From a virus: a DNA stretch of 64,000 nucleotides. The position numbers and the translations under genes were made by a program. The DNA lies in the IMG/VR virus record IMGVR_UViG_3300025889_000109, positions 1 to 64,000 of that record; one strand, given 5' to 3'. The notes below the pieces were generated by a model. The model did no database searches. It worked only from the letters and a program-made list of their open reading frames with translations, and was not told where the DNA came from. Positions 1,478-62,794 of this stretch are shown one piece after another (position 1 is the stretch's first letter; every line of letters starts with the position of its first letter).

Positions 1478-6385
<4,908 letters not shown>

Positions 6386-33857: not shown

Positions 33858-33893
33858 TTTACAAAGTAAACACGAAACTATTTGGATAATATA
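33858..33893 (+). promoter_or_regulatory. early promoter P1 (CACGA-N8-GGATAATAT)
   Basis: TTTACAAAG followed by TAAACACGA, 8 nt, then GGATAATAT. First of seven copies with identical 8-nt spacing; TTACAA lies about 18 nt upstream of GATAAT, as a sigma-70-like -35 would. Confidence 0.75.
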
Positions 33894-33935: not shown

Positions 33936-33970
33936 ATTACAAAGTAAGCACGAAGCAAATTGGATAATAT
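33936..33970 (+). promoter_or_regulatory. early promoter P2
   Basis: TTACAAAGTAAGCACGA, 8 nt (AGCAAATT), GGATAATAT. It lies just upstream of the 48-aa ORF at 33995. Confidence 0.75.
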
Positions 33971-34141: not shown

Positions 34142-34175
34142 TTACAAACTAAATACGAACCTCATCGGATAATAT
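34141..34175 (+). promoter_or_regulatory. early promoter P3
   Basis: ATTACAAACTAAATACGA, 8 nt (ACCTCATC), GGATAATAT. It overlaps the stop of the previous gene. Confidence 0.75.
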
Positions 34176-34413: not shown

Positions 34414-34590
34414 ATGACTACTAAATTAAAACGTAAAATTGAAAAACAAAACAAATCAACTGAAAAGAAAATGGGTACTTATCTCCTTGGTATGAAAGGA
34501 ACTACAAAAATATCCTTTGCTAGAAATGCACACTGGAACCATATTGACACGACTAAAGTCTACTATGCTTACACTAGACTACAAGCCTAA
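34414..34590 (+). CDS. small basic early protein (58 aa)
   Basis: The 58-aa product begins MTTKLKRKIEKQNKSTEKKM, a Lys-rich helix, then ISFARNAHWNHIDTTKV. It is preceded by an A-rich leader like those of other early genes (TTAACAAATAAAACACACAC). Function unknown; nucleic-acid binding is possible from its charge. Confidence 0.55.
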   Translation: MTTKLKRKIEKQNKSTEKKMGTYLLGMKGTTKISFARNAHWNHIDTTKVYYAYTRLQA

Positions 34591-34612
34591 CACGATACCA
34601 AATGGATAATAT
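34581..34612 (+). promoter_or_regulatory. early promoter P4
   Basis: ACAAGCCTAACACGA, 8 nt (TACCAAAT), GGATAATAT, overlapping the end of the 58-aa gene. Confidence 0.7.
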
Positions 34613-35956: not shown

Positions 35957-36027
35957 TTGCTATACACAATTACAAACTAAACACGACAACAAACAGATAA
36001 TACTAACAAATAACAAACACAATTATG
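35955..36027 (+). repeat. long leader repeat, copy 1
   Basis: AATTGCTATACACAATTACAAA, an early promoter, then TAACAAATAACAAACACA before ATG. Nearly the same sequence stands at 36224-36297, about 70 nt each. Both lead into early genes. Confidence 0.75.
35969..36003 (+). promoter_or_regulatory. early promoter P5
   Basis: ATTACAAACTAAACACGA, 8 nt (CAACAAAC), AGATAATAC. The -10 element deviates by one base from the others (AGATAATAC). Confidence 0.7.
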
Positions 36028-36225: not shown

Positions 36226-36297
36226 TTTGCTATACACAATTTACAAAGCAAACACGACATTATCAGGATAATATTAACAAATAACAAACACACTATG
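36224..36297 (+). repeat. long leader repeat, copy 2
   Basis: ATTTGCTATACACAATTTACAAAG, early promoter P6, then TTAACAAATAACAAACACAC before the ATG. See the first copy at 35955-36027. A third, partial copy (AACAAATAACAAACA) is near 37519. Confidence 0.75.
36241..36275 (+). promoter_or_regulatory. early promoter P6
   Basis: TTACAAAGCAAACACGA, 8 nt (CATTATCA), GGATAATATT, the best match to the consensus. Confidence 0.8.
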
Positions 36298-37351: not shown

Positions 37352-37514
37352 AACTAAAAAAGAAATGCCATATGATTTTTGGAACCACGGTATTAATCCA
37401 ATTTTAGGGTATAGATGGACACAACCACCTATGACACCACAAGAATCAAAACGTAATAAAAATGAATATCCAGAAATTGACGATTACAATCCAAACACGG
37501 AATACTCTGGATAA
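37344..37514 (+). CDS. small Pro-rich early protein (56 aa)
   Basis: ATG 37344 (MTKTKKEMPYDFWNHGINP) is inside the previous gene's end. The product contains GYRWTQPPMTPQESK and ends NPNTEYSG. I recall similar MPYDFW-type proteins in phages. Promoter P7 overlaps its 3' end. Confidence 0.5.
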   Translation: MTKTKKEMPYDFWNHGINPILGYRWTQPPMTPQESKRNKNEYPEIDDYNPNTEYSG

Positions 37515-37517
37515 TAT
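37484..37517 (+). promoter_or_regulatory. early promoter P7
   Basis: TTACAATCCAAACACGG, 8 nt (AATACTCT), GGATAATATT. One base differs from CACGA. It is embedded in the end of a coding frame, evidence that the motif is under its own selection. Confidence 0.7.
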
Positions 37518-38631: not shown

Positions 38632-38834
38632 TGACAATACAAGATTTAAAACTATACGTTGAAATGAAAAAGAAACGTAATGCCGAAAAATGGCAAGCTG
38701 AATGTGGTGTTCACGGTCATTGTAAACCATTGACTGATGCTGAATGGCAAAAATACCGTGACATTATATTTTCAGGTAAAGACAACTACAAAGTTAAATT
38801 TGCACATAACGAAATGTGGAATTTTACAAGGTAA
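38631..38834 (+). CDS. protein of unknown function (67 aa)
   Basis: MTIQDLKLYVEMKKKRNAEK is followed by CGVHGHCKPLTDAEWQKYRD. The Cys-x5-Cys with two His could be a metal site. Overlaps its upstream neighbour by 1 nt. Confidence 0.5.
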   Translation: MTIQDLKLYVEMKKKRNAEKWQAECGVHGHCKPLTDAEWQKYRDIIFSGKDNYKVKFAHNEMWNFTR

Positions 38835-38854
38835 ACACGAATAACTATGGATAT
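38823..38854 (+). promoter_or_regulatory. decayed early-promoter copy
   Basis: TTTACAAGGTAAACACGA, 8 nt (ATAACTAT), GGATATTTT. Element and spacing match the early promoters, but the -10 half lies on the start codon of the next gene, so it is either relict or works for an internal start. Confidence 0.45.
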
Positions 38855-39260
38855 TTTAAACAGATACAAAGAAAAGACTTCACCTAAATACATATTAAAT
38901 TTAGTTGAAAAAGAATTGAATTTACCAAACCTAAAATCTGAAATACGTACACGTGAACGTGTTCAAGCTAGATTTATATATTTTAAATTAGCTAGAACAT
39001 TTTGTATGTATTCAAGCTTATCAGCTATAGGCCGTGAGGTAAATCGTGATCATGCTACAGTACTACATGGACTAAGTAGATATGATGAAGAAGCTAAATA
39101 CGACATTTATATGGAAGACGTATACAATAAAATATATAATGATATTGTATTGACTAAGTTGCCACCAGCTAAAGAAAAAAATATAGACAAAGTATTCAAA
39201 GATATTATATACCGATTAACTAAATTAGAAAACCAATTAAATGCTATACCCAATGATTAA
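38847..39260 (+). CDS. stand-alone DnaA domain IV-like replication protein
   Basis: Residues about 45-80 carry ARTFCMYSSLSAIGREVNRD then HATVLHGLSR. This is the DnaA C-terminal helix-turn-helix with its basic loop and signature D-H-x-T-V-L. The 137-aa product lacks the AAA+ domain. Domain IV alone binds DnaA boxes, so it may mark the phage origin, recruit or displace host DnaA, or regulate promoters. It precedes the replication genes. Confidence 0.85.
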   Translation: MDILNRYKEKTSPKYILNLVEKELNLPNLKSEIRTRERVQARFIYFKLARTFCMYSSLSAIGREVNRDHATVLHGLSRYDEEAKYDIYMEDVYNKIYNDIVLTKLPPAKEKNIDKVFKDIIYRLTKLENQLNAIPND

Positions 39261-41086: not shown

Positions 41087-41704
41087 ATGTCGCATAGAAA
41101 CTTAAATTATTTTCACCGGAATAGAATAGTCTATAGACGAGATCCTATAAATGATACCCCTACTGAAATTTTTAGTTGGGGTAAATTTTATAAAAGTGGT
41201 ACTTATGAATGTTATCATTTATTTAGAAATTCTTCTAAAATAAATACGTTTAAATCATTTAAATGGCATATATTTGTATTATGGTACTTAAATCCTAATA
41301 TGAATAAAGAAGATATTTTAGCTTTAGCAAATCATATGGCTAATAAAGATAATGGATTTATAAGTATCAAGCTAAGTAATAACGCCATTACAAACCTAAT
41401 TGATGAAATTTATAAACTTGACCTTGATCAACCACCAAAAAACAAAATGCGTAAAATAATATTTAATGATCATTCAGGGCTAGAAACAAATGAGAAGTTG
41501 AGCATCGTAGGTAAATTAATAGGTAAGACTAGATTAGCGGAACCAGAAGATATATATGAAGCAATGTTGCATATACATGATGAAAGTAAAAAAATAACTA
41601 TATCAAAGATTGCAAAAATGCTTAATGTATCTACAAGAACAATTTATAGGAATATTACTAATGAAATTAGAGAGGAAAAGATTCTATTAAATGAAGAAGT
41701 ATAA
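41087..41704 (+). CDS. helix-turn-helix protein preceding sigma factor
   Basis: The 205-aa protein has a beta/aromatic N-terminal part (SWGKFYKSGTYECYHLFRN), a helical middle, and near residues 165-195 ITISKIAKMLNVSTRTIYRN, a clear helix-turn-helix. It overlaps the sigma gene start by 14 nt, pointing to joint expression. It may be a transcription regulator or replication-initiation accessory protein. Confidence 0.65.
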   Translation: MSHRNLNYFHRNRIVYRRDPINDTPTEIFSWGKFYKSGTYECYHLFRNSSKINTFKSFKWHIFVLWYLNPNMNKEDILALANHMANKDNGFISIKLSNNAITNLIDEIYKLDLDQPPKNKMRKIIFNDHSGLETNEKLSIVGKLIGKTRLAEPEDIYEAMLHIHDESKKITISKIAKMLNVSTRTIYRNITNEIREEKILLNEEV

Positions 41705-42422
41705 TGTAGAAAATTATATCCGTTATAAAAATGATTTAGACGAGACTCTTCAAAGAAAAATAAAAAATGAAAGAGAAAAAATAATAGTTGAAAATTTGCC
41801 ATTAGTTGAAACTATTGCACGTAAGTTTTCTACATCTGATCAAGCATCAGGTGTTTTAGACATTACAGATATGATACAGGAAGGATCAATTGGATTAATA
41901 TATGCTGTAGATCGTATTGATTGGGGAACAATAACTGATTCAGTTGATCCGGAACGTACATTGAAATCATTTCTATCAAAGCGAATTAAAGGTGCTATCC
42001 GTAGAGCTATTGATATTAATAGAGGAAATATTAGAATACCTGAACATAAATTAAATGATATGCGCAGAAATTCTGAACAAGAAAAGAAAACTATTGAATT
42101 ATTTTTTAATAGTATATTTTCTAGTATAGACAATGATGAAGAAAAGTTTATGCAGATAGAAGATAAAACAAAAGAATATAATATAGATATTCTTAATAAA
42201 TATCTTTTAGGCATAATGGAAGCACACTTAAATATAAAAGAATATGATGTGCTGCGTATGAGCTACGGTCTTGACTGTGATAAAATGTCCGCTAAAGAAA
42301 TTGCGGATAAATTAAAAATAGACGGGACGGCTGCTTATGTACGTATTTCGCAGATAAAACGTGATGCAATTAATAAATTAATAGAGAACGTAGATCCTGC
42401 GCAAGTAATTGATTTTGTGTAA
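41691..42422 (+). CDS. sigma-70 family RNA polymerase sigma factor
   Basis: The 243-aa protein has region 2 (EKIIVENLPLVETIARKFST, then DMIQEGSIGLIYAVDRID and IKGAIRRAIDINRGNIRIPE) and region 4 (LNIKEYDVLRMSYGLD, then MSAKEIADKLKIDGTAAYVR and ISQIKRDAINKLIE). Region 1.1 and most of region 3 are missing, as in phage or group 3/4 sigma factors. It would redirect host RNA polymerase to middle or late phage promoters. It follows the HTH gene. Confidence 0.9.
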   Translation: MKKYNVENYIRYKNDLDETLQRKIKNEREKIIVENLPLVETIARKFSTSDQASGVLDITDMIQEGSIGLIYAVDRIDWGTITDSVDPERTLKSFLSKRIKGAIRRAIDINRGNIRIPEHKLNDMRRNSEQEKKTIELFFNSIFSSIDNDEEKFMQIEDKTKEYNIDILNKYLLGIMEAHLNIKEYDVLRMSYGLDCDKMSAKEIADKLKIDGTAAYVRISQIKRDAINKLIENVDPAQVIDFV

Positions 42423-46271: not shown

Positions 46272-47082
46272 ATATAGAGGATTATTATCAGGAATACTCC
46301 ATGGAGGGGTACCGAAGCAGGACAGAACAGGGACTGGGACGAAGGCTGTCTTTGGAAGAATGCTTAGACATGATATGGCACTCGGATTTCCAATATTAAC
46401 TACTAAAAAAATATATTTTGAAAAAGCAGTTACCGAATTACTTTGGATATTATCAGGTTTTACTGACCTTAAGTATCTTAATGATAACGGTGTTGAGTAT
46501 TGGAATAGTGATTACAAAAGGTCTGGAAGGACCGACGGAACTCTGGGCCCTGTTTATGGGCATCAGTGGCGTAACTTTGGCGGTGTTGATCAATTACGAA
46601 ACTTATTATCTGAGATCAAAACAACGCCTTATTCCAGAAGACTCATGGTTAATGCTTGGAACCCTATTGATATCCCTGATATGGTTCTTCCTCCATGCCA
46701 TTACGGTTTCCAAATATATATTAATGATAACAAGATGAGTCTAATGTGGCAGCAACGATCTGCTGATGTATTTTTAGGATTGCCATATGATATTGTAATG
46801 TACGGTTTATTATTAGAAATGTTATGTCATGAAACACAATATAAACCCGGACAATTAATAGCAAGTCTTGGTGATTGTCATTTATATAATAATCATTTAG
46901 AACAAGCTAAATTACAATTATCAAGAGAACCAAAAAAATTACCTACATTAGAATTAAAATTTGGATTAAAAATTGTAGAAGGTGCAAATAACTTTATTCA
47001 TGTACCATCTAAAAATATGATTAAATTAAATAACTATGAGCACCACGAAGCAATCAGAGCAGAACTCTCAGTCGGACAATGA
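46252..47082 (+). CDS. thyA: thymidylate synthase (ThyA)
   Basis: The 276-aa enzyme contains QDRTGTGTKAVFG, the catalytic Cys near residue 148 in LPPCHYGFQIYI, QQRSADVFLGLPYDIVMY, and LGDCHLYNNH. These are the full active site of folate-dependent thymidylate synthase, which methylates dUMP to dTMP. It starts in the overlap with its neighbour. With NrdAB it supplies thymidine nucleotides for phage DNA. Confidence 0.95.
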   Translation: MINIEDEYRGLLSGILHGGVPKQDRTGTGTKAVFGRMLRHDMALGFPILTTKKIYFEKAVTELLWILSGFTDLKYLNDNGVEYWNSDYKRSGRTDGTLGPVYGHQWRNFGGVDQLRNLLSEIKTTPYSRRLMVNAWNPIDIPDMVLPPCHYGFQIYINDNKMSLMWQQRSADVFLGLPYDIVMYGLLLEMLCHETQYKPGQLIASLGDCHLYNNHLEQAKLQLSREPKKLPTLELKFGLKIVEGANNFIHVPSKNMIKLNNYEHHEAIRAELSVGQ

Positions 47083-47590
47083 GTTTTGGTTTCAAAAAAA
47101 TAATTATATGTATCAATACCTATCAGAAGAAAGTAAAAAAATTGTAGAAAAAATAAATAAAAAGTATATGAAAAATTTAATATTTAGTTTTATTTTATTA
47201 CCTTTAATAAGTTATTCACAAACATATTATACAAGTGGATTAAGATTTCATAATGAAGTAAGATCATTTTATGATTTACCAGCATTAAGATATAACAATG
47301 AATTATCATTAGAAGCACAAATGTGGGCAGAGCATATGGCAGCAACAGATTCTTTTACAACAAGTAAAGATGGCTATGGCGAAAATATATTTTGGATTGA
47401 CAGAAATTATGCTCGTCTACATAATAAGAATATATTATTAGAAGCTTCTATAAATTGGATATTAAATTCAGATGATTATTCAACTTATAATCAAGCTTTA
47501 TATGAAGGCGCAAGTAATATTGGATTTGGAATGGCTGAAAATGAAAATACAATATATGTTGTAGCTAAGTACGACAAGCTATATGAATAA
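47036..47590 (+). CDS. CAP/SCP-domain protein, secreted or membrane-anchored
   Basis: The frame opens at 47036 inside thyA, but residue 45 (ATG 47168) starts a signal peptide, MKNLIFSFILLPLISYSQ, ending in the SYSQ typical of Bacteroidetes exports. The remainder, RFHNEVRSFYDLPALRYNNE then AQMWAEHMAATDSF and GENIFW, ending IGFGMAENENTIYVVAKYD, is a CAP (SCP/PR-1) domain with His, Glu and GEN motif. The 44-residue extension could be a cytoplasmic domain or lie outside the real start. Such domains occur in secreted bacterial proteins; the phage role is unknown. Confidence 0.75.
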   Translation: MSTTKQSEQNSQSDNEFWFQKNNYMYQYLSEESKKIVEKINKKYMKNLIFSFILLPLISYSQTYYTSGLRFHNEVRSFYDLPALRYNNELSLEAQMWAEHMAATDSFTTSKDGYGENIFWIDRNYARLHNKNILLEASINWILNSDDYSTYNQALYEGASNIGFGMAENENTIYVVAKYDKLYE

Positions 47591-53344: not shown

Positions 53345-53448
53345 TTCTTCTTAGTTTTAGAAGTTACAGGTACACAATTAGGTACTTTCTTACCATTTTT
53401 ATTTTTAGTACCAATCATTTGGTATCCTGTCCAGCATGCTTTTTTCAT
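53341..53448 (-). CDS. small basic conserved peptide (35 aa)
   Basis: MKKACWTGYQMIGTKNKNGK, then VPNCVPV. The KKxCWxGYxMIGxKxKxGxxVPNCVP pattern is a familiar marine phage peptide whose function is unknown. It overlaps both neighbours by 4 nt. Confidence 0.7.
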   Translation of the reverse strand: MKKACWTGYQMIGTKNKNGKKVPNCVPVTSKTKKK

Positions 53449-56400
53449 CTTGTTTTTCTTGTATTTCTAGAACCTCTGGTTCTTGATTTTGAACTTTTAT
53501 ATATTACTCCTGATTTTTTAGTTTGTTTTTCAATCATACCTAAATCCCATTCAGACCATCCAAGTGATAATGCTATTGATTGCCATAATTCTGTTTCAGG
53601 TTTCATAGCAGTATAAATATGATCAGCTTTTTGCACAATTCTATCAACAGGTATATTTGCTACTGCAGATATAACTTGACCACCAGCTAAAAATGCTGGA
53701 TTTTCTAAATTAAAGCCTTCAGTAAATACTTTTTCTTTTGATTGTTTATAAGTAAAAGTTTTGCCGGCTGATATTAATTTACGTAATTTAGAATTTACAG
53801 GTGGTGAAATTGTGGTTGCTGCGATTGCCGCTTGAGTATAATCAGGGCGGCTTGACTTAGCTTGATCAATTATTTCCATTATTACGTTTTTAGCGGTTGA
53901 TGCTACAGCACCATAAACTCCAGCGCCGCGTAAAAATGTATCAAGCATTGAATTCCCAACTTTAAAATATCTTTCTTTTTCTTTTTCATCTTCTTCATCA
54001 GAAAATAATAAAGCAAAAAGACCTTGTTGTAAAGCAGAGAATATTATATTCTGTATTACACCATAATACATAATCTTACTTACATTTGTCTTCCAATCTC
54101 CTCTATTATTTATTAAATCTAATGCGGCCTTCTTTTGAATGCGAGCATATTGCATTGGTGTATTACCCCAAGCAAGTATTAAACGCCCTAAAGAACTTGC
54201 TTGTTGCATTGAAATTCTATCGGGTCTTGCAGATTGTTGAGACTCTTCAGCTGTTTCTTGAAAATCTTCAAATGCTTTCTTTTGTGCTTCTTCTTGCGTT
54301 AGTCCCTCTTTTAAATATTTATTTATTCTATTGCGATAAAATGTTGCACCACCAGAAGCGATAGCAAATGAGTCAGCAATTTGAGTTGGTGTAAATCCAG
54401 CTTTTAATATTGTACTTAATACTGCTTTAGCTTTATTTTTAGAGGTAGCTGCCGCATTAGCAATTTCATCAGCATTAATATCTATTTGTAAACCAGACCT
54501 TCTTTGCTTTAAAAAGTCTGATGTAAATAATTCAACAAAATCTGACCAATATTGTTTTTGATTAGCAAAAGCTTTAGCAGCATTTATTGGATTATTATCT
54601 GTAAAATTAATAAAGTTAATTGCAGATATTGTTTGAAGTAATGCAGAACGAGAGTTAAAGAACATTACAGTTCCAACGGAATTATTAATCCATTCTTGAA
54701 ATGCTCTTTCTTTTTTAGTAACACCCATTCTTTTATTTCTGCCATTCCACATTCTATAAAGCATGTCATCTAATGACTCTATATATGATGTTCCGTATAA
54801 CGCCTTAAGTTTATTTTTATTTTTATCAGAAAATATTATATCAACATTATCCTTCCATGGTTGCAAATATTCTTTTCTTTTTACATCATTGATATAAGAA
54901 ACAAGGTCAGTTGTAATATCTCCTGCTGTCCAACCTGATGTAGGATCAGGATAACCATCAACATTTAATACCATTAATTTATCAGCAAAAGCTTTTAAAG
55001 CAGCATTATTACGAATATATTTTAAATTATCATTTAAATCGGCTTTACTCATACCCATTTCTTTTGATGTCATATCAACGCCTTGAGTATGCCAAATATA
55101 TATACGTACAGAGTCTTGATTTCTAAAACCAGTTTCGTTTTGTTTATTTAAACCAGCTGGCACATCTTTTTTAATTTGTGCTTTTAAATCTGCCCAATCC
55201 CTAAGTGCTCTTTGTTTAGCAGCTTCATATTGTTGAATACCACGAGAAAATGGTTTTAATAAGTTTTCCTTATACCATTCCATCTGTGCATCACCAGTTT
55301 TGCCTTTGCCTAAAGTTGTGTATAGCAAACCTACAAAATCATCAGCATCATAAGGTACAAAGAATTTAAATTTACCTTTACCTCTTCCTAAAAGTTCTGC
55401 TTTAACAGGTGAATATTCTTTATAAAATTCTACGCCTGTAGAATCTTGTAATATTTTATTAAATTCAGTATCTAATGATTTAGAGGCTTTTACAGCTTGC
55501 GATCTATATTTTATATCATATGCAGATAATGTTTCTGCTACGGCTTTAACATTTTTCAATGCATCATCAGCAAAATATACATCATTATACCCTAAATTTA
55601 ATTTAGAAGCAATCCAGTCAGCTTTTGCTTGCGGCGAACCGTTTCCTAAGCCAATTATATTTTCTAGTCTAAATGGCAACCCTAAACCTTCTAAGAAAGG
55701 TTGTATTGCATATTTAGCTTCAGCTGGTCTTGCAGTTAATATAAATAAATCCTCATCACCTCTTTTATCCAATATAGCTTTTGCTACATCAAACATAGGG
55801 CCTTTTTCACCTTCAATAACTTTACTAAATTCAGTAAAATCAAATTCAGCTCCTTGTTGCAATAAATCATCACCTTGTTTTGCAAATTGTTCAGCATTTA
55901 ATTTTCCTTTAGTGCCGTCAGGCATTGTGTATAATACATTAGATTTAGATCTTGCTAGTGTATCATCAAAATCAAATACTCTTAATTTTTTATTTGTTGA
56001 TTTAGAAGGTTTTATTACTAAACTTTCTGTTAATAAATCTTCTAATTCTAACTTAGGTAAATTTTCATTATTAAAAATTTCAATAACTTCTTTTTGATTA
56101 TATCTTATTACATTTACGCTACTGCCTTTTATTAAATCACCATTTTTATCCCTTGGCCCATTACTTTTAAAACCGGTAGAATTTATAATTTTATCATAAG
56201 ATTTAGGTATTATAGCCACTCTAAATCCTTGCATAATATCATTAAATGTAAATTTATAGTCTTTTATAGTTATATATTTAGCTAAATCGGTTAAAGTGTC
56301 AGATGCTGTTTGTGTATGTTCATATCTATAATCACTATCGGTTAAACCATCTATTTTAAATTGCAACCCTGGATAAGCAGCCGTTCTAATTAAAGCATTT

Positions 56401-59400
56401 ATGCTAGAATTAAATGTAGCTAAAATCATACCTACATCATTTTTCGTAATTTCATTATTTGTATATAACTGCTTTATAGAATTTATAATTTTTTCTAATC
56501 CTTCTCTTTGCGTTTGCGCAAAATATAATCTATTTTTTAATTGTTCCCCTTCAAATTTTCCACTGGTAAATCCTTTTGGTGTTTGATTAGGGACTGCTAA
56601 TATTGGTATTTCTTCTCCATTTATATTAACAAATCTTTTTCGCTTTTTATATTCTACACTATTAAATATTTTTTTTGCTTCTTCAAAAAAATCTGCTCTT
56701 CCTATAAATAAAAATTGATTTGTTCTAAAAGAATTTTCATCATTTGGGTCTTCTAATTCTTTTACAATTAATTTATTTAAATCTTTTTCTGGTATAAATT
56801 TTCCGCCAATTTTACCCCAACCGCCTTGTACTGTGGGTAATAAATATTGAACTGCTTTTTCAGGGCCTAATATTTTTGCTAATTTAAGCATTGCTTTTCT
56901 AGCAGATAATACTTGATTTTTATTTTTAAAATCTATAGCTCCAGCTGGAAGGTCTAATGCTATTCTAGCTTTACTAAATTTAAAATTAATAGGTCTACCA
57001 ATTATACTACTTACTTTGTCTACAAAATTATCTGTTAATTCTATTCCTTGTAATTCTGCAATATCCATTGCTTTTTGCATAATAGCAGGATCAGATAATA
57101 CCTCCATTGTGGCGTCTAAAGCAAATGCTTCTGACAATGCTTCCGCTAAAGCAGTTTTTCTAGCACCTTGAGTTGATCTTCCAACTTCATTTCCTAAAAA
57201 ATATTTAATCCATTCAGCTTTACTTATTTTCTTTTTAGTAAATACTTTATTACCTTCTGCTGTTTTTTCTCTAACCTGTTTGCCATCTTTCATGACAGGC
57301 TCAGCAAATTCTGTTAACCTTTTATTTATTATAGATTGTGGTAATGCATCATATATAGCCTCAAAATTATTAGAAAGAAAAGACCTATAATCCTCTGTTC
57401 TACCCATTAATTTTGCAATAGGATTTTTAAGTTCTGTTCTAAAACTTTTTTCTAATTCCGTTTTAAAAGCTTTTTCTGTAATACTTGGTAATTTTGTTCC
57501 AAAAGTTTTTCTTACCGCATCAAATACAATTGGTTTAATTTCATCACCAATATTCATTTTTTTGCGTAAACTTTGTAATTTTTCAGATGGTTTTTCTATA
57601 ACCTCTTCTGTAATTTCTTCTGTAGTTGTATCTGTAATACCTTTAGCTTCAGTTACATCTAATTTAAAATCAGTGTCTAATATACGATTAGCTGCTTCAA
57701 TAGCTCTTTTTTCTAATTGGCCTTGAATATATGTATTTAAAGTAGCCCCCTTAGATATGTCATATTTTTGTATTAAATCTAATAATCCTCTTGGGCCTAA
57801 TTCAATTTCACTTTGTAATAATTCAAAATCAAATCCAGGAACATTTTTATATTTATTTGTTATACGCGCAGTTAAAGGTTTATAGGCTTTTATTATTTCA
57901 GCAGCACCTTCTTTACCTTTTTCTTCATATATTTGATTTACTTTAATTGCTTCAGAAGCTTTAGATTTTAATATATCTCTTTTTTGTTGTTTTTGAGTTT
58001 TTGTAGAAATCAAAGAACCTGATATTTCACCTTTTGCTATTTTAATTTGTTGTAAGGTTAATGTGCCTTTTTCTAAAGAAGAATTAATATCTTTTATAAA
58101 ATTTAACACATCTTGTCCTTTATCAAATTTTGCAGTAATACCTATAGTACCAATAGCTTTTCTTATTAATCCACTTATATTATCATCAACAATTTTTATA
58201 TCACCAGTTTTTAATGCATCAGAAAATAAAGTCAATATTTCTTCTGCTTTTGAAGCTTTATCAATACTTTTATCTTTTTTATATTGATTTAATCTTTGTC
58301 TAAATTCTGAATTTTTTATTTGTTCAGGATCTAATCTATTAAGTTCTTCTTCTAATGCTTTTCCTAAATTTAATGCAGTTTCAGGGTTATTTTTTAAAGA
58401 TTGAAATAAAAGGGCATGGATAAACTCATGATTAGCTACATTAACTCCCACTCTGCTTTTAGCAGCTTGTTCTTTATTTATAATAATTATTTGTTTATCA
58501 GTATTTTTATCTTGTATTATAAAACCATAATCATTAGATCCCTTTTTGTATTCATCAGAATAATTATTTTTTTCTATAAATTCATTTATTTGATCAGCAT
58601 TATTAAAAGCTTGAATATCTAAATTTTGAACATATTTTGCCGCTTGTTGTGTTTTATCAATACCTTTTGAAACATCTTCAGCATTTTTTCTTATATTATA
58701 TATAGCATTTTGTGCTTGATTTGCTTTTTGTTGTAATTCTAATATTAATTCTTTTTTTATTTCATCAGATAATTCATTATTAGAATTTATTCTTTTAATT
58801 TCATTAGCTGTAGAAATTAAAGTTTTAGAATAATTATCAATATCATTTATTTGATTTTCTGTTAAAGCAAATACAATTTTATTATTTTTTTCAACAGATG
58901 ATTTAAGCTCTGTTATTATAGTATTTTGTCTATCAGTAATAAGTTTTATATCTTTTTCAGAAATGCCTTTTTGCATTTTAGATCTTTCTAGCATTCCAAA
59001 TAAAGATACTTTTTCAGCAATAAAGTCTTGCTCTTCTTTTGTTCTTATATTAGAAGCCGCTACTATACCTTTTCCAGCTAACGAAAAGCCTGTTGCGCCA
59101 AATGCTCCTTGTAAAAAGCTTTCAATACCCTCTTTTGATTTCATAAAAGCCCAGGCATCATCCTCAGCTTCAATTAAATTTTTTCCTTCGGCTAAAGATG
59201 TATTAATATTTTCTAATCCGACATCAAACCATTCTTGTAGACCATTCGTGCCTGTTGTTAATCCTAAATCAACAATATTTTTTAATACAGAAGTTGAAGA
59301 ATTAAATATTGAATTTGAAATTTTTTCTAGCCCTGCTTTTTCTAAACCCCATCTTAAAACACCAATTGCTGCCGGCGTAAACATTTCTAATTTACCTGCA

Positions 59401-60341
59401 GCAGCTAATTCTTCTAAATTTTTTCCAGTAGTTTCTGAAACTTTTCTATTATAATCAGCAACTGTTTGCCCAACAATTTCTAATCCTAATCCAGCACCAA
59501 AAGTTAGCCCGCTTACTGCCATGCTAGATCCTACGTTTGCAAAAGCATTTATTAAAGCCCCTGCTCCAAATTTTATATTTTCTTTTATTGTTTTGTCCTT
59601 GCCTATATCTGTAAAGCCATAGGCAGGCTCTATCATGCGAGAATACGTTTTTAATTTATTTTCAACTTTACCTAATTGTACTCTATTATATTCATTTATT
59701 TTTTTACCCGTTTTTTCGCCAAATATATTGTAAACTATATCTGTATCTGAAAGTAAAAAATGATATAAATATTCTCCATAATCATCAATTTGAGCAAACC
59801 TATTCATAGCCTGCCCAGCTGTATTTGAAATTGATTGACCTAAAGTTTTTGGAAGTTCTTTTTGTTTTTTTCTTTCTTCTAATTCAGCCGCAGAAACTCT
59901 TTGTGTTTCTTCATATTCTGTTATTGGTAAAAGCTGGCCTTGATCTTTAGGTAACATTTTTGGTATACCCATAAGATCCAAAGCGGCAGAAGCTTCTCTT
60001 GATTTATACTCATTTGCGGTTATTATAACTTCTTCTAGTTCAACAGGTTTTACTGCCCAATTGTATTCATCAATTTGCTCTCCTCTTAAAATAATTTCAC
60101 CTTCCTTTGTGTATTCCGATAAACCATTTTCCGGCTTGGAATCCATAACGGGTGCTGCATTTTCCTCCACAACCGCACCCGGTGTTGTGGGAGTTGTCTT
60201 TCCCAATTCTGCTGGTTTTCTTTTATCAATTAAACCATCTTGTTTTGCTTTTTCAATATAAGAATCAATATCCATATTAGATTCTTTTGCTGATTCTTCT
60301 ACTTGCTCTAAAGTAATAGGCATTCCGTCAAATTCAAACAT
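53445..60341 (-). CDS. giant multidomain internal virion protein (2298 aa)
   Basis: This is the largest gene here. The start is disordered, with ELEEVIITANEYKS near residue 100. A zincin motif NHEFIHALLF lies near 636-645. A segment LLDLIQKYDISKGATLNTYI near 850 resembles sigma region 2. A HAD hydrolase domain spans about 1455-1610, with FDFDDTLARS, ILTARP and DVYFADDALKN. The last third is helical and Gln-rich, with a hydrophobic segment near 2095. This layout fits an ejected DNA-injection protein of a short-tailed phage, carrying enzymatic domains into the cell. Confidence 0.8.
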   Translation of the reverse strand: MFEFDGMPITLEQVEESAKESNMDIDSYIEKAKQDGLIDKRKPAELGKTTPTTPGAVVEENAAPVMDSKPENGLSEYTKEGEIILRGEQIDEYNWAVKPVELEEVIITANEYKSREASAALDLMGIPKMLPKDQGQLLPITEYEETQRVSAAELEERKKQKELPKTLGQSISNTAGQAMNRFAQIDDYGEYLYHFLLSDTDIVYNIFGEKTGKKINEYNRVQLGKVENKLKTYSRMIEPAYGFTDIGKDKTIKENIKFGAGALINAFANVGSSMAVSGLTFGAGLGLEIVGQTVADYNRKVSETTGKNLEELAAAGKLEMFTPAAIGVLRWGLEKAGLEKISNSIFNSSTSVLKNIVDLGLTTGTNGLQEWFDVGLENINTSLAEGKNLIEAEDDAWAFMKSKEGIESFLQGAFGATGFSLAGKGIVAASNIRTKEEQDFIAEKVSLFGMLERSKMQKGISEKDIKLITDRQNTIITELKSSVEKNNKIVFALTENQINDIDNYSKTLISTANEIKRINSNNELSDEIKKELILELQQKANQAQNAIYNIRKNAEDVSKGIDKTQQAAKYVQNLDIQAFNNADQINEFIEKNNYSDEYKKGSNDYGFIIQDKNTDKQIIIINKEQAAKSRVGVNVANHEFIHALLFQSLKNNPETALNLGKALEEELNRLDPEQIKNSEFRQRLNQYKKDKSIDKASKAEEILTLFSDALKTGDIKIVDDNISGLIRKAIGTIGITAKFDKGQDVLNFIKDINSSLEKGTLTLQQIKIAKGEISGSLISTKTQKQQKRDILKSKASEAIKVNQIYEEKGKEGAAEIIKAYKPLTARITNKYKNVPGFDFELLQSEIELGPRGLLDLIQKYDISKGATLNTYIQGQLEKRAIEAANRILDTDFKLDVTEAKGITDTTTEEITEEVIEKPSEKLQSLRKKMNIGDEIKPIVFDAVRKTFGTKLPSITEKAFKTELEKSFRTELKNPIAKLMGRTEDYRSFLSNNFEAIYDALPQSIINKRLTEFAEPVMKDGKQVREKTAEGNKVFTKKKISKAEWIKYFLGNEVGRSTQGARKTALAEALSEAFALDATMEVLSDPAIMQKAMDIAELQGIELTDNFVDKVSSIIGRPINFKFSKARIALDLPAGAIDFKNKNQVLSARKAMLKLAKILGPEKAVQYLLPTVQGGWGKIGGKFIPEKDLNKLIVKELEDPNDENSFRTNQFLFIGRADFFEEAKKIFNSVEYKKRKRFVNINGEEIPILAVPNQTPKGFTSGKFEGEQLKNRLYFAQTQREGLEKIINSIKQLYTNNEITKNDVGMILATFNSSINALIRTAAYPGLQFKIDGLTDSDYRYEHTQTASDTLTDLAKYITIKDYKFTFNDIMQGFRVAIIPKSYDKIINSTGFKSNGPRDKNGDLIKGSSVNVIRYNQKEVIEIFNNENLPKLELEDLLTESLVIKPSKSTNKKLRVFDFDDTLARSKSNVLYTMPDGTKGKLNAEQFAKQGDDLLQQGAEFDFTEFSKVIEGEKGPMFDVAKAILDKRGDEDLFILTARPAEAKYAIQPFLEGLGLPFRLENIIGLGNGSPQAKADWIASKLNLGYNDVYFADDALKNVKAVAETLSAYDIKYRSQAVKASKSLDTEFNKILQDSTGVEFYKEYSPVKAELLGRGKGKFKFFVPYDADDFVGLLYTTLGKGKTGDAQMEWYKENLLKPFSRGIQQYEAAKQRALRDWADLKAQIKKDVPAGLNKQNETGFRNQDSVRIYIWHTQGVDMTSKEMGMSKADLNDNLKYIRNNAALKAFADKLMVLNVDGYPDPTSGWTAGDITTDLVSYINDVKRKEYLQPWKDNVDIIFSDKNKNKLKALYGTSYIESLDDMLYRMWNGRNKRMGVTKKERAFQEWINNSVGTVMFFNSRSALLQTISAINFINFTDNNPINAAKAFANQKQYWSDFVELFTSDFLKQRRSGLQIDINADEIANAAATSKNKAKAVLSTILKAGFTPTQIADSFAIASGGATFYRNRINKYLKEGLTQEEAQKKAFEDFQETAEESQQSARPDRISMQQASSLGRLILAWGNTPMQYARIQKKAALDLINNRGDWKTNVSKIMYYGVIQNIIFSALQQGLFALLFSDEEDEKEKERYFKVGNSMLDTFLRGAGVYGAVASTAKNVIMEIIDQAKSSRPDYTQAAIAATTISPPVNSKLRKLISAGKTFTYKQSKEKVFTEGFNLENPAFLAGGQVISAVANIPVDRIVQKADHIYTAMKPETELWQSIALSLGWSEWDLGMIEKQTKKSGVIYKSSKSRTRGSRNTRKTR

Positions 60342-60351
60342 ATTTTTTTAT

Positions 60352-61755
60352 TTAATTATATCTTGGTAAAATACTAGGAAGAAAAGCTTTTTGTATTTGA
60401 TTTAATTGTTCGTCTGTTAAAGGATAATTATTAATATTATAAATTAAATCAACATCATTTTTATAATCGTATGATGCAATATATTTTGCGAGCGCTGCCA
60501 CACCCTCTTTTGTTTTTAAATCAAATTGTGCATTTATTACCTTATTGTTATCTTTATCAAGATCATAAAAAGTAATTTTATTATTTTTAACTTCAGTTTT
60601 ATCAGGCATACCGCTTTTTTCAATAGCTTTTATTGGATCAGATATTATAGAAGTTATTGTTTGATCAGTAATATCTTTATTGCGCTGTCTTTTTTTATCC
60701 GCTTCTGTACCTGTATCAAATTTATCAGCATAATCTTTTTTATAATCTTCATATGCATCTGTAGCCGCCTTTTTTAATTGGCTTTTAACCCATAAATTTA
60801 AATCTTCAGGTTCACCAAACTTTCCATCATTATCCATATCAATATTGCTTTTAAATTTAGCAATATCTATATTACCATTTTTATCTGTAAAATCCGCTAT
60901 AGTAACATATTCTGGCATTTCTTTTCCTAAATAATCAAATGCGATTGACAAAGCTTGCTCAGGCGTAAAATTTAACCCAGATATAGTCGCATCAATATCT
61001 TTGTTAAAACTATCTAAAGACTTACCTTTGCTTGCGGCTTTATCAGCAGCAGCGTTAACAGTAGTAAAAGCTGCAGTAAAAGCTTCAGTGTCTACAGGTA
61101 TATAAGTTGGATTTGCAATTTCATCAAATGGTATTTCAAAATTTTTATTATTTACTTTTACTTTTGCTATAATTTTACTCCTTCCTTCTTCGTCTTTTTC
61201 TGTTGGAGAAAAACCAAGCTCAAATTTTCCACCCATAATTTGATTAGAAATTTCTATATCTTCAGATGAATTAATCATACTAGGCTCTGCATCTAAATAA
61301 TTTTTTAATATTTTAGGCATTGCATTTGCTATATCATTGCCCCTTTTAACATCCTCATTTATGCTTTCTCGTATCATAACAGCTCCAGCTTCACCAATAT
61401 CTCCTCTTAAAATGCGATCATTTAATTCTTTTGTTCTATTTTTAGCATCTTTCATCATTAAAGTTAATAAAGCTTTAGATTGGACAGGCATAGTATCTAT
61501 AGACCACTCGGCTTTTTGAATTTTATCTAAAGTTTTTGCTGCTAGATTTTGTCTATTTTCTAAAGCCTTTCTAAAAGCCTCTGCCTCTAATTTTCTTTTT
61601 TCAAATCTAAGCTCTTGTTGTTTTAATTGCTTAGCTTGTTGTCTTTCAAAAGCCATTTGTCCTTTTTCAACAGCAGGTGTAATACTAACATATTGTTCTG
61701 CGCTTGCAGCCCCTACTTTTTGCGCTAAACTTGGATTATAATATCTTGATGCCAT
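60352..61755 (-). CDS. internal virion protein with EF-hand-like loop
   Basis: The 467-aa product begins ASRYYNPSLAQKVGAASAEQ, then a long helical, Gln/Lys-rich region (QAKQLKQQELRFEKRKLEAE). Near residue 310 there is DMDNDGKFGEPE, a canonical 12-residue EF-hand loop. It ends with a strand-helix tail. It lies between the giant protein and a small internal protein, in the layout of podoviral gp14-15-16. A calcium-responsive ejection protein is possible. Confidence 0.65.
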   Translation of the reverse strand: MASRYYNPSLAQKVGAASAEQYVSITPAVEKGQMAFERQQAKQLKQQELRFEKRKLEAEAFRKALENRQNLAAKTLDKIQKAEWSIDTMPVQSKALLTLMMKDAKNRTKELNDRILRGDIGEAGAVMIRESINEDVKRGNDIANAMPKILKNYLDAEPSMINSSEDIEISNQIMGGKFELGFSPTEKDEEGRSKIIAKVKVNNKNFEIPFDEIANPTYIPVDTEAFTAAFTTVNAAADKAASKGKSLDSFNKDIDATISGLNFTPEQALSIAFDYLGKEMPEYVTIADFTDKNGNIDIAKFKSNIDMDNDGKFGEPEDLNLWVKSQLKKAATDAYEDYKKDYADKFDTGTEADKKRQRNKDITDQTITSIISDPIKAIEKSGMPDKTEVKNNKITFYDLDKDNNKVINAQFDLKTKEGVAALAKYIASYDYKNDVDLIYNINNYPLTDEQLNQIQKAFLPSILPRYN

Positions 61756-61770
61756 AATTAAAATTTATTT

Positions 61771-62475
61771 TTAGCCATAATTTTGATCTTCACCACCAAA
61801 ACCTGGAACGCCTTTAGCCCCAAGAAATGCAGCGCCGCCGGCCCCAACAGCCTCAGAAACTCCGCCAATCAAATCTTGTTTAGCCTGTTGTCTTGCATAA
61901 TCAGTTCTTAATTTTTCTTCAGCTGACATACCAAGTAATGTTTCTGTTCTTCCTAATTCAAACTCTTGCTGTTGAGCAGCGCCTGCAGCTTCCAGCTGTT
62001 GTAACCTAGATGCTTCTCTCGCTTTCATCATTTCTATTTCTTTTTCTTGCTGGCTAATACTAGCAGATGCAGCTTGTAAATTTGATGCTTGTTGTTTTGC
62101 TAAAGCTTGAGCCAATGCTGCAGCACCCATTCCTCCTCCTCCGCTTTTTAACGCTTCTAATGTTTGAGCTAAGCCTTGTTGCTCTTGTTGTGCTTGAAAA
62201 TCTGCTGCTGCAGTTGATACTTTTAAATCTTCAAAAGTATTTTCTAAATTAGCATAAGGATTAGTAAATTGAAAACTTTCATAAGCTTGTTTTCTTTGCC
62301 CTAATTCTAAATTAGCCGCTTTTTGTGCTCTTTTTCTTTTTCCAGAGCCAAACATAGAGCCAACAGATTTAATTATGCCAGGAGCCGCTGCAATAGCCGC
62401 TATAGCTAATGGTGCAATTGCTTTATGCACATTAGGATCATTTGTTCCAAATAAAAAATCAATTAATATATTCAT
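61771..62475 (-). CDS. small internal virion protein (gp14-like)
   Basis: The 234-aa product has a hydrophobic Ala/Ile stretch (APLAIAAIAAAPGIIKSVGS), a Lys-rich patch, then Gln/Ala-rich helices (QAQQEQQGLAQTLEALKSGG) and a Gly-rich tail. The overall pattern recalls the first ejected protein of T7-like phages, which forms a channel in the outer membrane. Assignment is by position and composition. Confidence 0.6.
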   Translation of the reverse strand: MNILIDFLFGTNDPNVHKAIAPLAIAAIAAAPGIIKSVGSMFGSGKRKRAQKAANLELGQRKQAYESFQFTNPYANLENTFEDLKVSTAAADFQAQQEQQGLAQTLEALKSGGGGMGAAALAQALAKQQASNLQAASASISQQEKEIEMMKAREASRLQQLEAAGAAQQQEFELGRTETLLGMSAEEKLRTDYARQQAKQDLIGGVSEAVGAGGAAFLGAKGVPGFGGEDQNYG

Positions 62476-62476
62476 C

Positions 62477-62794
62477 TTAATTACTGCTTAAAAATACTTC
62501 TGAACTAACTGCAAATATTTCAGCTTCAGAAGTTGATTCGTTCTTAAATTCTACTTCGGCATAATAACCTATTAAGCCAGATGTGTTTATTTGACTGTCT
62601 TTACCAAAAAATATAAAAGATGTTGGTAATAAGCCAGTTGCATCTCCATCAATAGTACATACAATAGAGCCGGTATTTATTTCACCAACAGGGCCTATTC
62701 TTTTTACAGTTCCGTTGTCATTATAATAAATAATATCACCAATCTGCAAAGATGCGTTTTTATTAAAACTAGTATTTAGTGTTATTTGACTCAT
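62477..62794 (-). CDS. small beta-rich virion protein
   Basis: The 105-aa product starts SQITLNTSFNKNASLQIGDI, then IYYNDNGTVKRIGPVGEINT and is beta-rich, like a fibre-attached or capsid-decoration protein. The gene is 1 nt from the gp14-like gene. Unknown function. Confidence 0.5.
   Translation of the reverse strand: MSQITLNTSFNKNASLQIGDIIYYNDNGTVKRIGPVGEINTGSIVCTIDGDATGLLPTSFIFFGKDSQINTSGLIGYYAEVEFKNESTSEAEIFAVSSEVFLSSN

Follow-up and report, generated by a model that had tools for sequence, protein, structure and literature searches.

The window analysed here comprises 64,000 bases of a 65,291-base virus record that belongs to a marine bacteriophage. It contains a single reading frame that stays open over 2298 codons (positions 53445–60341), lies on the minus strand and is the last gene of the late cassette. 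The first-pass annotation had reported this frame without naming its strand and had described the product (here P0001) as a virion protein combining a zincin, a segment like sigma-70 region 2 and a HAD phosphatase. We confirmed the frame and found the underlying motifs at the residues previously given, namely HEFIH at 638, LIQKYDISKG at 856, DFDDT at 1457, TARP at 1536 and DD at 1592. The presence of all three domains in one chain, and their conservation, were upheld by comparison with 79 homologous giants from metagenomic phages.

Three further cassette genes were assigned on the minus strand beside the giant. A 467-aa gene (60352–61755) occupies the place of phi38:1 gp100 and elemo gp22 and, judged by synteny only, probably encodes a second ejection protein. 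It is followed by a gene for a 234-aa homologue of phi38:1 gp99, a protein annotated as structural (61771–62475; blastp E 5e-7 in a small sequence set), in which hydropathy reveals a hydrophobic segment, and by a 105-aa gene that is conserved upstream of the giant (62477–62794; phrog_18548). The near-identical record L001 has the gene order 1635-aa structural protein, carbamoyltransferase, 181, 105, 234, 467, giant, 115 and RNR, and the ends of the window therefore join as in a permuted genome. The same order is found in phi38:1 (gp97–gp101) and elemo (gp25–gp21), where the genes are largely annotated as structural, and the giants of phi38:1 (gp101), elemo (gp21) and ctfjg026 hold the same late-cassette place as P0001. 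The portal and terminase proteins each match the corresponding phage families, and the portal has relatives in Cellulophaga, Flavobacterium, Tenacibaculum and Maribacter phages. The phage is a podovirus related to the Cellulophaga phi38:1 and Flavobacterium elemo phages, and its host probably belongs to the Bacteroidota. Because the giant closes a late cassette that matches genes annotated as structural in phi38:1 and elemo, an ejected polyvalent protein is its most likely identity; on the strength of this synteny we regard packaging in the virion and ejection as very likely. Elsewhere in the window, an extended array of degenerate GGTACAGG-type repeats (1727–3200) lies within the 1635-aa structural gene, and a gene for a phage CAP (cysteine-rich secretory protein) domain (47036–47590; Pfam E 1.9e-15) sits beside thymidylate synthase and MazG.

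Plain tblastn searches with P0001 or its HAD domain against 50,697 phage records gave no match, and a Pfam search of P0001 returned nothing significant. A scan of viral contigs, on the other hand, yielded 363 stretches coding for relatives, of which 80 loci were retained; the giant frames extracted from them are mostly 1900–3860 aa long. When regions of the full-length giants were ranked by conservation, the C-terminal 650 residues came first, being present in all, and the HAD domain second. Values of dN/dS in close pairs fall between 0.03 and 0.16 for most domains, the exceptions being an exchanged domain or a distant pair, and between 0.03 and 0.11 for most domains when the closest pairs are taken, which at the sequence level indicates strong purifying selection. 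The long helical C-terminal domain (residues 1616–2298; 53448–55496, minus strand) is carried by all homologues and, according to structural matches in BFVD, is akin to many phage proteins, some of which are annotated as large polyvalent proteins, PolyVal ADP-ribosyltransferase or MuF. The middle region (residues 906–1449; 55995–57626, minus strand) contains no recognised domain, as judged by the lack of a significant Pfam or PHROGs match.

The N-terminal part of the protein behaves differently from the rest when P0001 is compared with its counterpart in L001. Identity is 14–32% over residues 100–800 (mostly 14–28% at 100–570) but 70–98% after residue 800, with 86–100% in nearly all of 850–2250. 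Comparison of window positions 57950–60040 with L001 shows an abrupt fall in identity from about 95% to 20% near giant residue 800. The variable half (residues 1–567; 58641–60341, minus strand) is exchanged between close relatives, and the N-terminal half, including the zincin, is swapped as a cassette.

The zincin-like metallopeptidase domain spans residues 568–730 (58152–58640, minus strand) and is defined by an AlphaFold model together with conservation in alignment A3. Its HEFIH motif (residues 638–642; 58416–58430) conforms to the HEXXH pattern, for which the chance expectation in a protein of this composition is about 0.001. Of 73 full-length giants, 66 keep HEXXH and another has HEXXXH instead, and the motif is missing from 6 homologues; the HEXXXH variant is also known among polyvalent proteins (PMC5512222). 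In alignment A3, H638, E639 and H642 are at least 90% conserved and the sole invariant column is E701 (58239–58241), the putative third zinc ligand. The AlphaFold model consists of three strands, a helix bearing HEXXH and a later helix bearing E701, and the plan described for polyvalent zincins has the same strands, HEXXH helix and later Glu helix (PMC5512222). The same zincin domain was also detected in the elemo giant, which is annotated as a structural protein (E 1.8e-5 at Z 100000). Because the structure-search list was taken up by sigma factors, the zincin did not appear in it, and its fold is assigned from motifs together with predicted secondary structure. The zincin claim of the first-pass annotation was thus borne out, and we believe that the domain is very probably active.

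The HAD domain (residues 1450–1615; 55497–55994, minus strand) was identified by a match to phrog_415, "polynucleotide kinase" (E 1.9e-6), by structure and by its motifs. Residues D1457, D1459, T1461, T1536, R1538, K1573, K1580, D1592 and D1593 are invariant in all 54 aligned sequences, as expected for the phosphatase that had been proposed here. The proposal can be narrowed from a generic phosphatase to one resembling the 3'-phosphatase of Pnkp, which heals nucleic-acid ends. In the structure search, T4 Pnkp and bacterial Pnkp1 occupy the top four places (Z 12.4–11.4), with other HADs close behind, and with T4 Pnkp the domain shares the HAD fold (Z 12.4), DxDxT, T/S-x-R, the Lys and DD. Two T4 Pnkp residues that we take to be an Arg 11 residues past the nucleophile (R176) and an Asp 4 before the Lys (D254) have no conserved Arg or Asp equivalent in the HAD alignment, but the loops differ. 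In three homologues a P-loop kinase interrupts the HAD between motifs I and II (L061:10706–11785, L066:13043–14131 and L075:10946–12025), whereas in T4 Pnkp the kinase precedes the HAD and P0001 has no kinase. The inserted kinase matches a polynucleotide kinase family as well as the AAA_33/zeta-toxin group, and against the PDB it gives weak matches to T4 polynucleotide kinase and to the group of 4gp7, a Clostridium Pnkp kinase domain. Given the Pnkp-like fold and a Pnkp-like kinase inserted in three homologues, we read the HAD module as one for nucleic-acid end healing and consider its assignment to the Pnkp type likely. Stand-alone HADs of 167–190 aa that resemble that of the giant were also seen in Bacteroidota single-cell and metagenome contigs (L098–L101 and L103–L105).

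The HAD domain is missing from 9 homologues, and neither it nor the HEXXH motif, absent in 6, is therefore indispensable. This would fit a giant that is a mere ejection-channel protein whose enzyme-like domains are vestigial or serve as maturation tools within the virion only. Yet where the domains occur their catalytic residues are invariant or nearly so, purifying selection on them is strong, and in some relatives a kinase has been joined to the HAD; we consider a channel-only role very improbable.

Between the zincin and the middle region lies a domain like sigma-70 region 2 (residues 790–905, core 813–888; 57627–57974, minus strand), recognised by profile against the PDB, by fold and by Pfam in homologues. 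When the A2 profile (33 sequences) was compared with all PDB sequences, the first 15 places were all taken by RNA polymerase sigma factors (best E 2.2e-4). A profile of 17 close members alone placed sigma factors in the first four positions, and the A3 zincin-sigma profile had four PDB matches in total, all of them sigma factors. The A6 profile, made from the sigma-like region of a distant subset, had seven weak matches, one of which is a sigma factor. P0001 itself has no Pfam Sigma70_r2 match. Three other giants do have one at the expected place (L071, E 1.3e-4; L037, 1.5e-3; G078, 4.5e-4), all below the curated cut-off, and the remaining Sigma70_r2 matches in those searches fall in short frames only, nearly all of them stand-alone sigma genes of ~250 aa.

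Structure prediction agrees with the profiles. The AlphaFold model has a pLDDT of 84–93 in the sigma-like part, and the best 50 structural matches listed by Foldseek with VIA-align are all sigma factors. Model residues 246–321 (P0001 813–888) superpose on sigma70 376–447 over 72 residues at 2.3 Å, and the N-terminal domain of SigE superposes over 77 of 77 residues at 2.5 Å. Structural Z values of 7–9 are weak by themselves for a helical bundle, and Foldseek E-values for the whole model are weak (at least 0.094), so that the assignment leans on the unbroken run of sigma factors among the matches listed, on the VIA alignment and on the sequence profiles. It is the combination of a uniform sigma list with a matching sequence register that makes the likeness convincing. 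The suspicion that it might be spurious was not borne out, sigma factors being the top PDB matches both by profile and by fold, and the domain very probably has the sigma region 2 fold.

The region 2 fold is the part of the sigma-70 claim that stands; region 4 and the canonical −10 residues do not. No Sigma70_r4 match to the region 4 helix-turn-helix was found by Pfam in P0001. In the register of sigma70, the residues W433, W434, Q437, T440 and R441, which we take to be those for melting and −10 reading, are not kept, the P0001 equivalents being G874, Q875, K878, I881 and E882. Since both are missing, we have not filed the domain as a sigma factor. Like FliA, SigE and sigma70 it has the region 2 fold and in-register sequence likeness; unlike them it is embedded in a giant, is without region 4 and does not keep the −10 reading residues. 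It may nevertheless work like a sigma region 2. The same features also suit a decoy or inhibitor that sits on the RNA polymerase core and shuts off host transcription, with host sigma or some other factor acting at the early promoters, and phages do use binders of RNA polymerase and sigma, such as AsiA (PMC7824862).

The first-pass annotation had held that an arrangement of this kind has no well-described function. The architecture is indeed new, but that statement overlooked a class already described in phages, the polyvalent proteins (Iyer et al. 2017, PMC5512222), with which P0001 shares its nature as a giant multidomain late-gene product with a zincin and predicted delivery with the DNA. 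P0001 shows the traits of this class in having several unrelated domains in one chain, a HEXXH with a Glu in a later helix, and late placement among virion genes, and its C-terminal helical region resembles proteins annotated with large-polyvalent-protein domains. No polyvalent Pfam domain was found in P0001, and LPD14 appeared weakly in 1 of 17 homologues. The main text of PMC5512222 has 0 occurrences of a sigma-like domain and 0 of a phosphatase or polynucleotide kinase, whereas P0001 has both a sigma-like domain and a phosphatase. In the literature we found no report of a sigma domain in a virion. The giant is thus a new architecture in a known polyvalent protein class. It extends the repertoire of injected polyvalent proteins by two domain types, sigma region 2 and a Pnkp-like phosphatase that in some cases has a kinase nested in it. 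Neither was detected in the giants of phi38:1, elemo and ctfjg026, of which that of elemo shares the zincin with P0001 and that of ctfjg026 has a weak C-terminal match.

A second known counterpart is the virion RNA polymerase of coliphage N4, a giant ejected zincin protein with two smaller ejection proteins beside it, which starts early transcription on entry (PMC5512222, PMC12633501). The N4 giant carries its own polymerase, whereas what was recognised in P0001 is a fold through which other proteins dock on host polymerase. Pfam and PHROGs gave no polymerase match in P0001; residues 1–567 and 1011–1447 lie outside the structure model.

The early region of the window (33.8–38.9 kb) contains, on the plus strand, eight copies of TTACAANNNAAACACGA-N8-GGATAATAT, where none is expected and none was seen in 100 shuffles. 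The copies, with the consensus TTACAAN3WAAYACGA-N8-GGATAATAT, are located at 33859–33892, 33937–33970, 34142–34175, 34579–34612, 35970–36003, 36241–36274, 37484–37517 and 38824–38857, and five of the eight lie 20–32 nt ahead of a start codon. The motif was found in 21 of 25 relatives, on a single strand each time (reversed control 0), and in 0 of 3 cousins (phi38:1, ctfjg026 and elemo), whose giants show no sigma region 2. Promoters of the bipartite host consensus number 0 on the early plus strand of the window, and the host-type promoter TAnnTTTG occurs at chance across the whole window. Elemo is enriched for bipartite host-type promoters (4 versus 1.2 expected; single motif 21 versus 10.6), and phi38:1 showed no enrichment of host-type promoters. 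From their placement and form we infer that the early motifs are promoters. The group's motifs are phage-specific rather than host-like and so call for a dedicated recognition factor, which argues against the decoy reading of the sigma-like domain; we regard that reading as unlikely.

The phage also has a complete stand-alone sigma factor that comprises both region 2 and region 4 (41691–42422, plus strand; Sigma70_r2 1.3e-6, Sigma70_r4 2.2e-4), and a sigma gene is present in most large records of relatives. This offers another explanation, in which the sigma-like helices of the giant are a structural module that makes no contact with RNA polymerase, helical bundles matching one another easily, and the reader of the promoters is either an atypical host sigma or the stand-alone sigma, the latter packaged or produced from a few leaky starts. 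Sequence profiles, however, choose sigma factors independently of the structural comparison, and the Pfam sigma region 2 family matches three homologous giants. Furthermore, all eight motif copies lie upstream of the stand-alone sigma gene and share its strand, so that, were the motifs the earliest promoters to fire, their reader would have to be a factor already present at entry. A packaged stand-alone sigma could serve the early promoters, and an unusual host sigma is a possible reader, yet we find the structural-module explanation doubtful. The best candidate reader of the early motifs is the virion-borne sigma-region-2-like domain.

We therefore favor a model in which the giant would be packaged and ejected with the DNA, bearing several activities. 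The long helical C-terminus would anchor it in the virion or ejection machinery, and the zincin would cleave either its own chain, releasing domains, or host proteins. The sigma-region-2-like domain would dock on the host RNA polymerase core and direct the enzyme to the incoming DNA, so that phage-specific early promoters could fire prior to any phage gene expression, including that of the phage's own sigma (41691–42422). The Pnkp-like HAD would strip 3'-phosphates off RNA or DNA ends broken by host defence nucleases. We give an even chance to the central proposal, an ejected polyvalent protein whose sigma-like domain influences host RNA polymerase to the benefit of phage transcription. Use of this domain at the early promoters is a step that we put forward with somewhat less assurance. 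More tentatively still, a packaged sigma-like domain within the giant, steering the host polymerase towards a dedicated early promoter, might constitute a third way of starting early genes, relying neither on plain host sigma promoters nor on a packaged polymerase, with transcription possibly coupled to DNA entry. If true, phages that package no polymerase would be able to bring their own promoters into use as soon as infection begins, and would do so in a widespread uncultured group.

The association of motif and giant was also apparent when 41 records of ~40 kb or more were picked by the DNA motif alone. The C-terminal module of the giant was present in 36 of them and the zincin-sigma region, whole or partial, in 32; the five records without the C-terminal module are all <43 kb. 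The early motif can therefore serve as a DNA tag for finding this phage group. It also occurs in relatives without a sigma region 2 detectable by the A2 profile (e.g. L010, L014, L017 and L036), and the shared occurrence of motif and giant may follow mere descent. A group that lacks the HAD and has a divergent sigma-like region (L045/L040) uses an alternative early motif, AAATACGTTACA-N14-GTGATAATATA, in which the downstream end GATAATAT is retained, and in this group the stand-alone sigma is likewise not clearly recognised. With two classes only, these sequence comparisons are suggestive of a promoter class that co-varies with the class of sigma region 2. The alternative motif lies in L233 (G038:38000–57999) and at G023:760–796.
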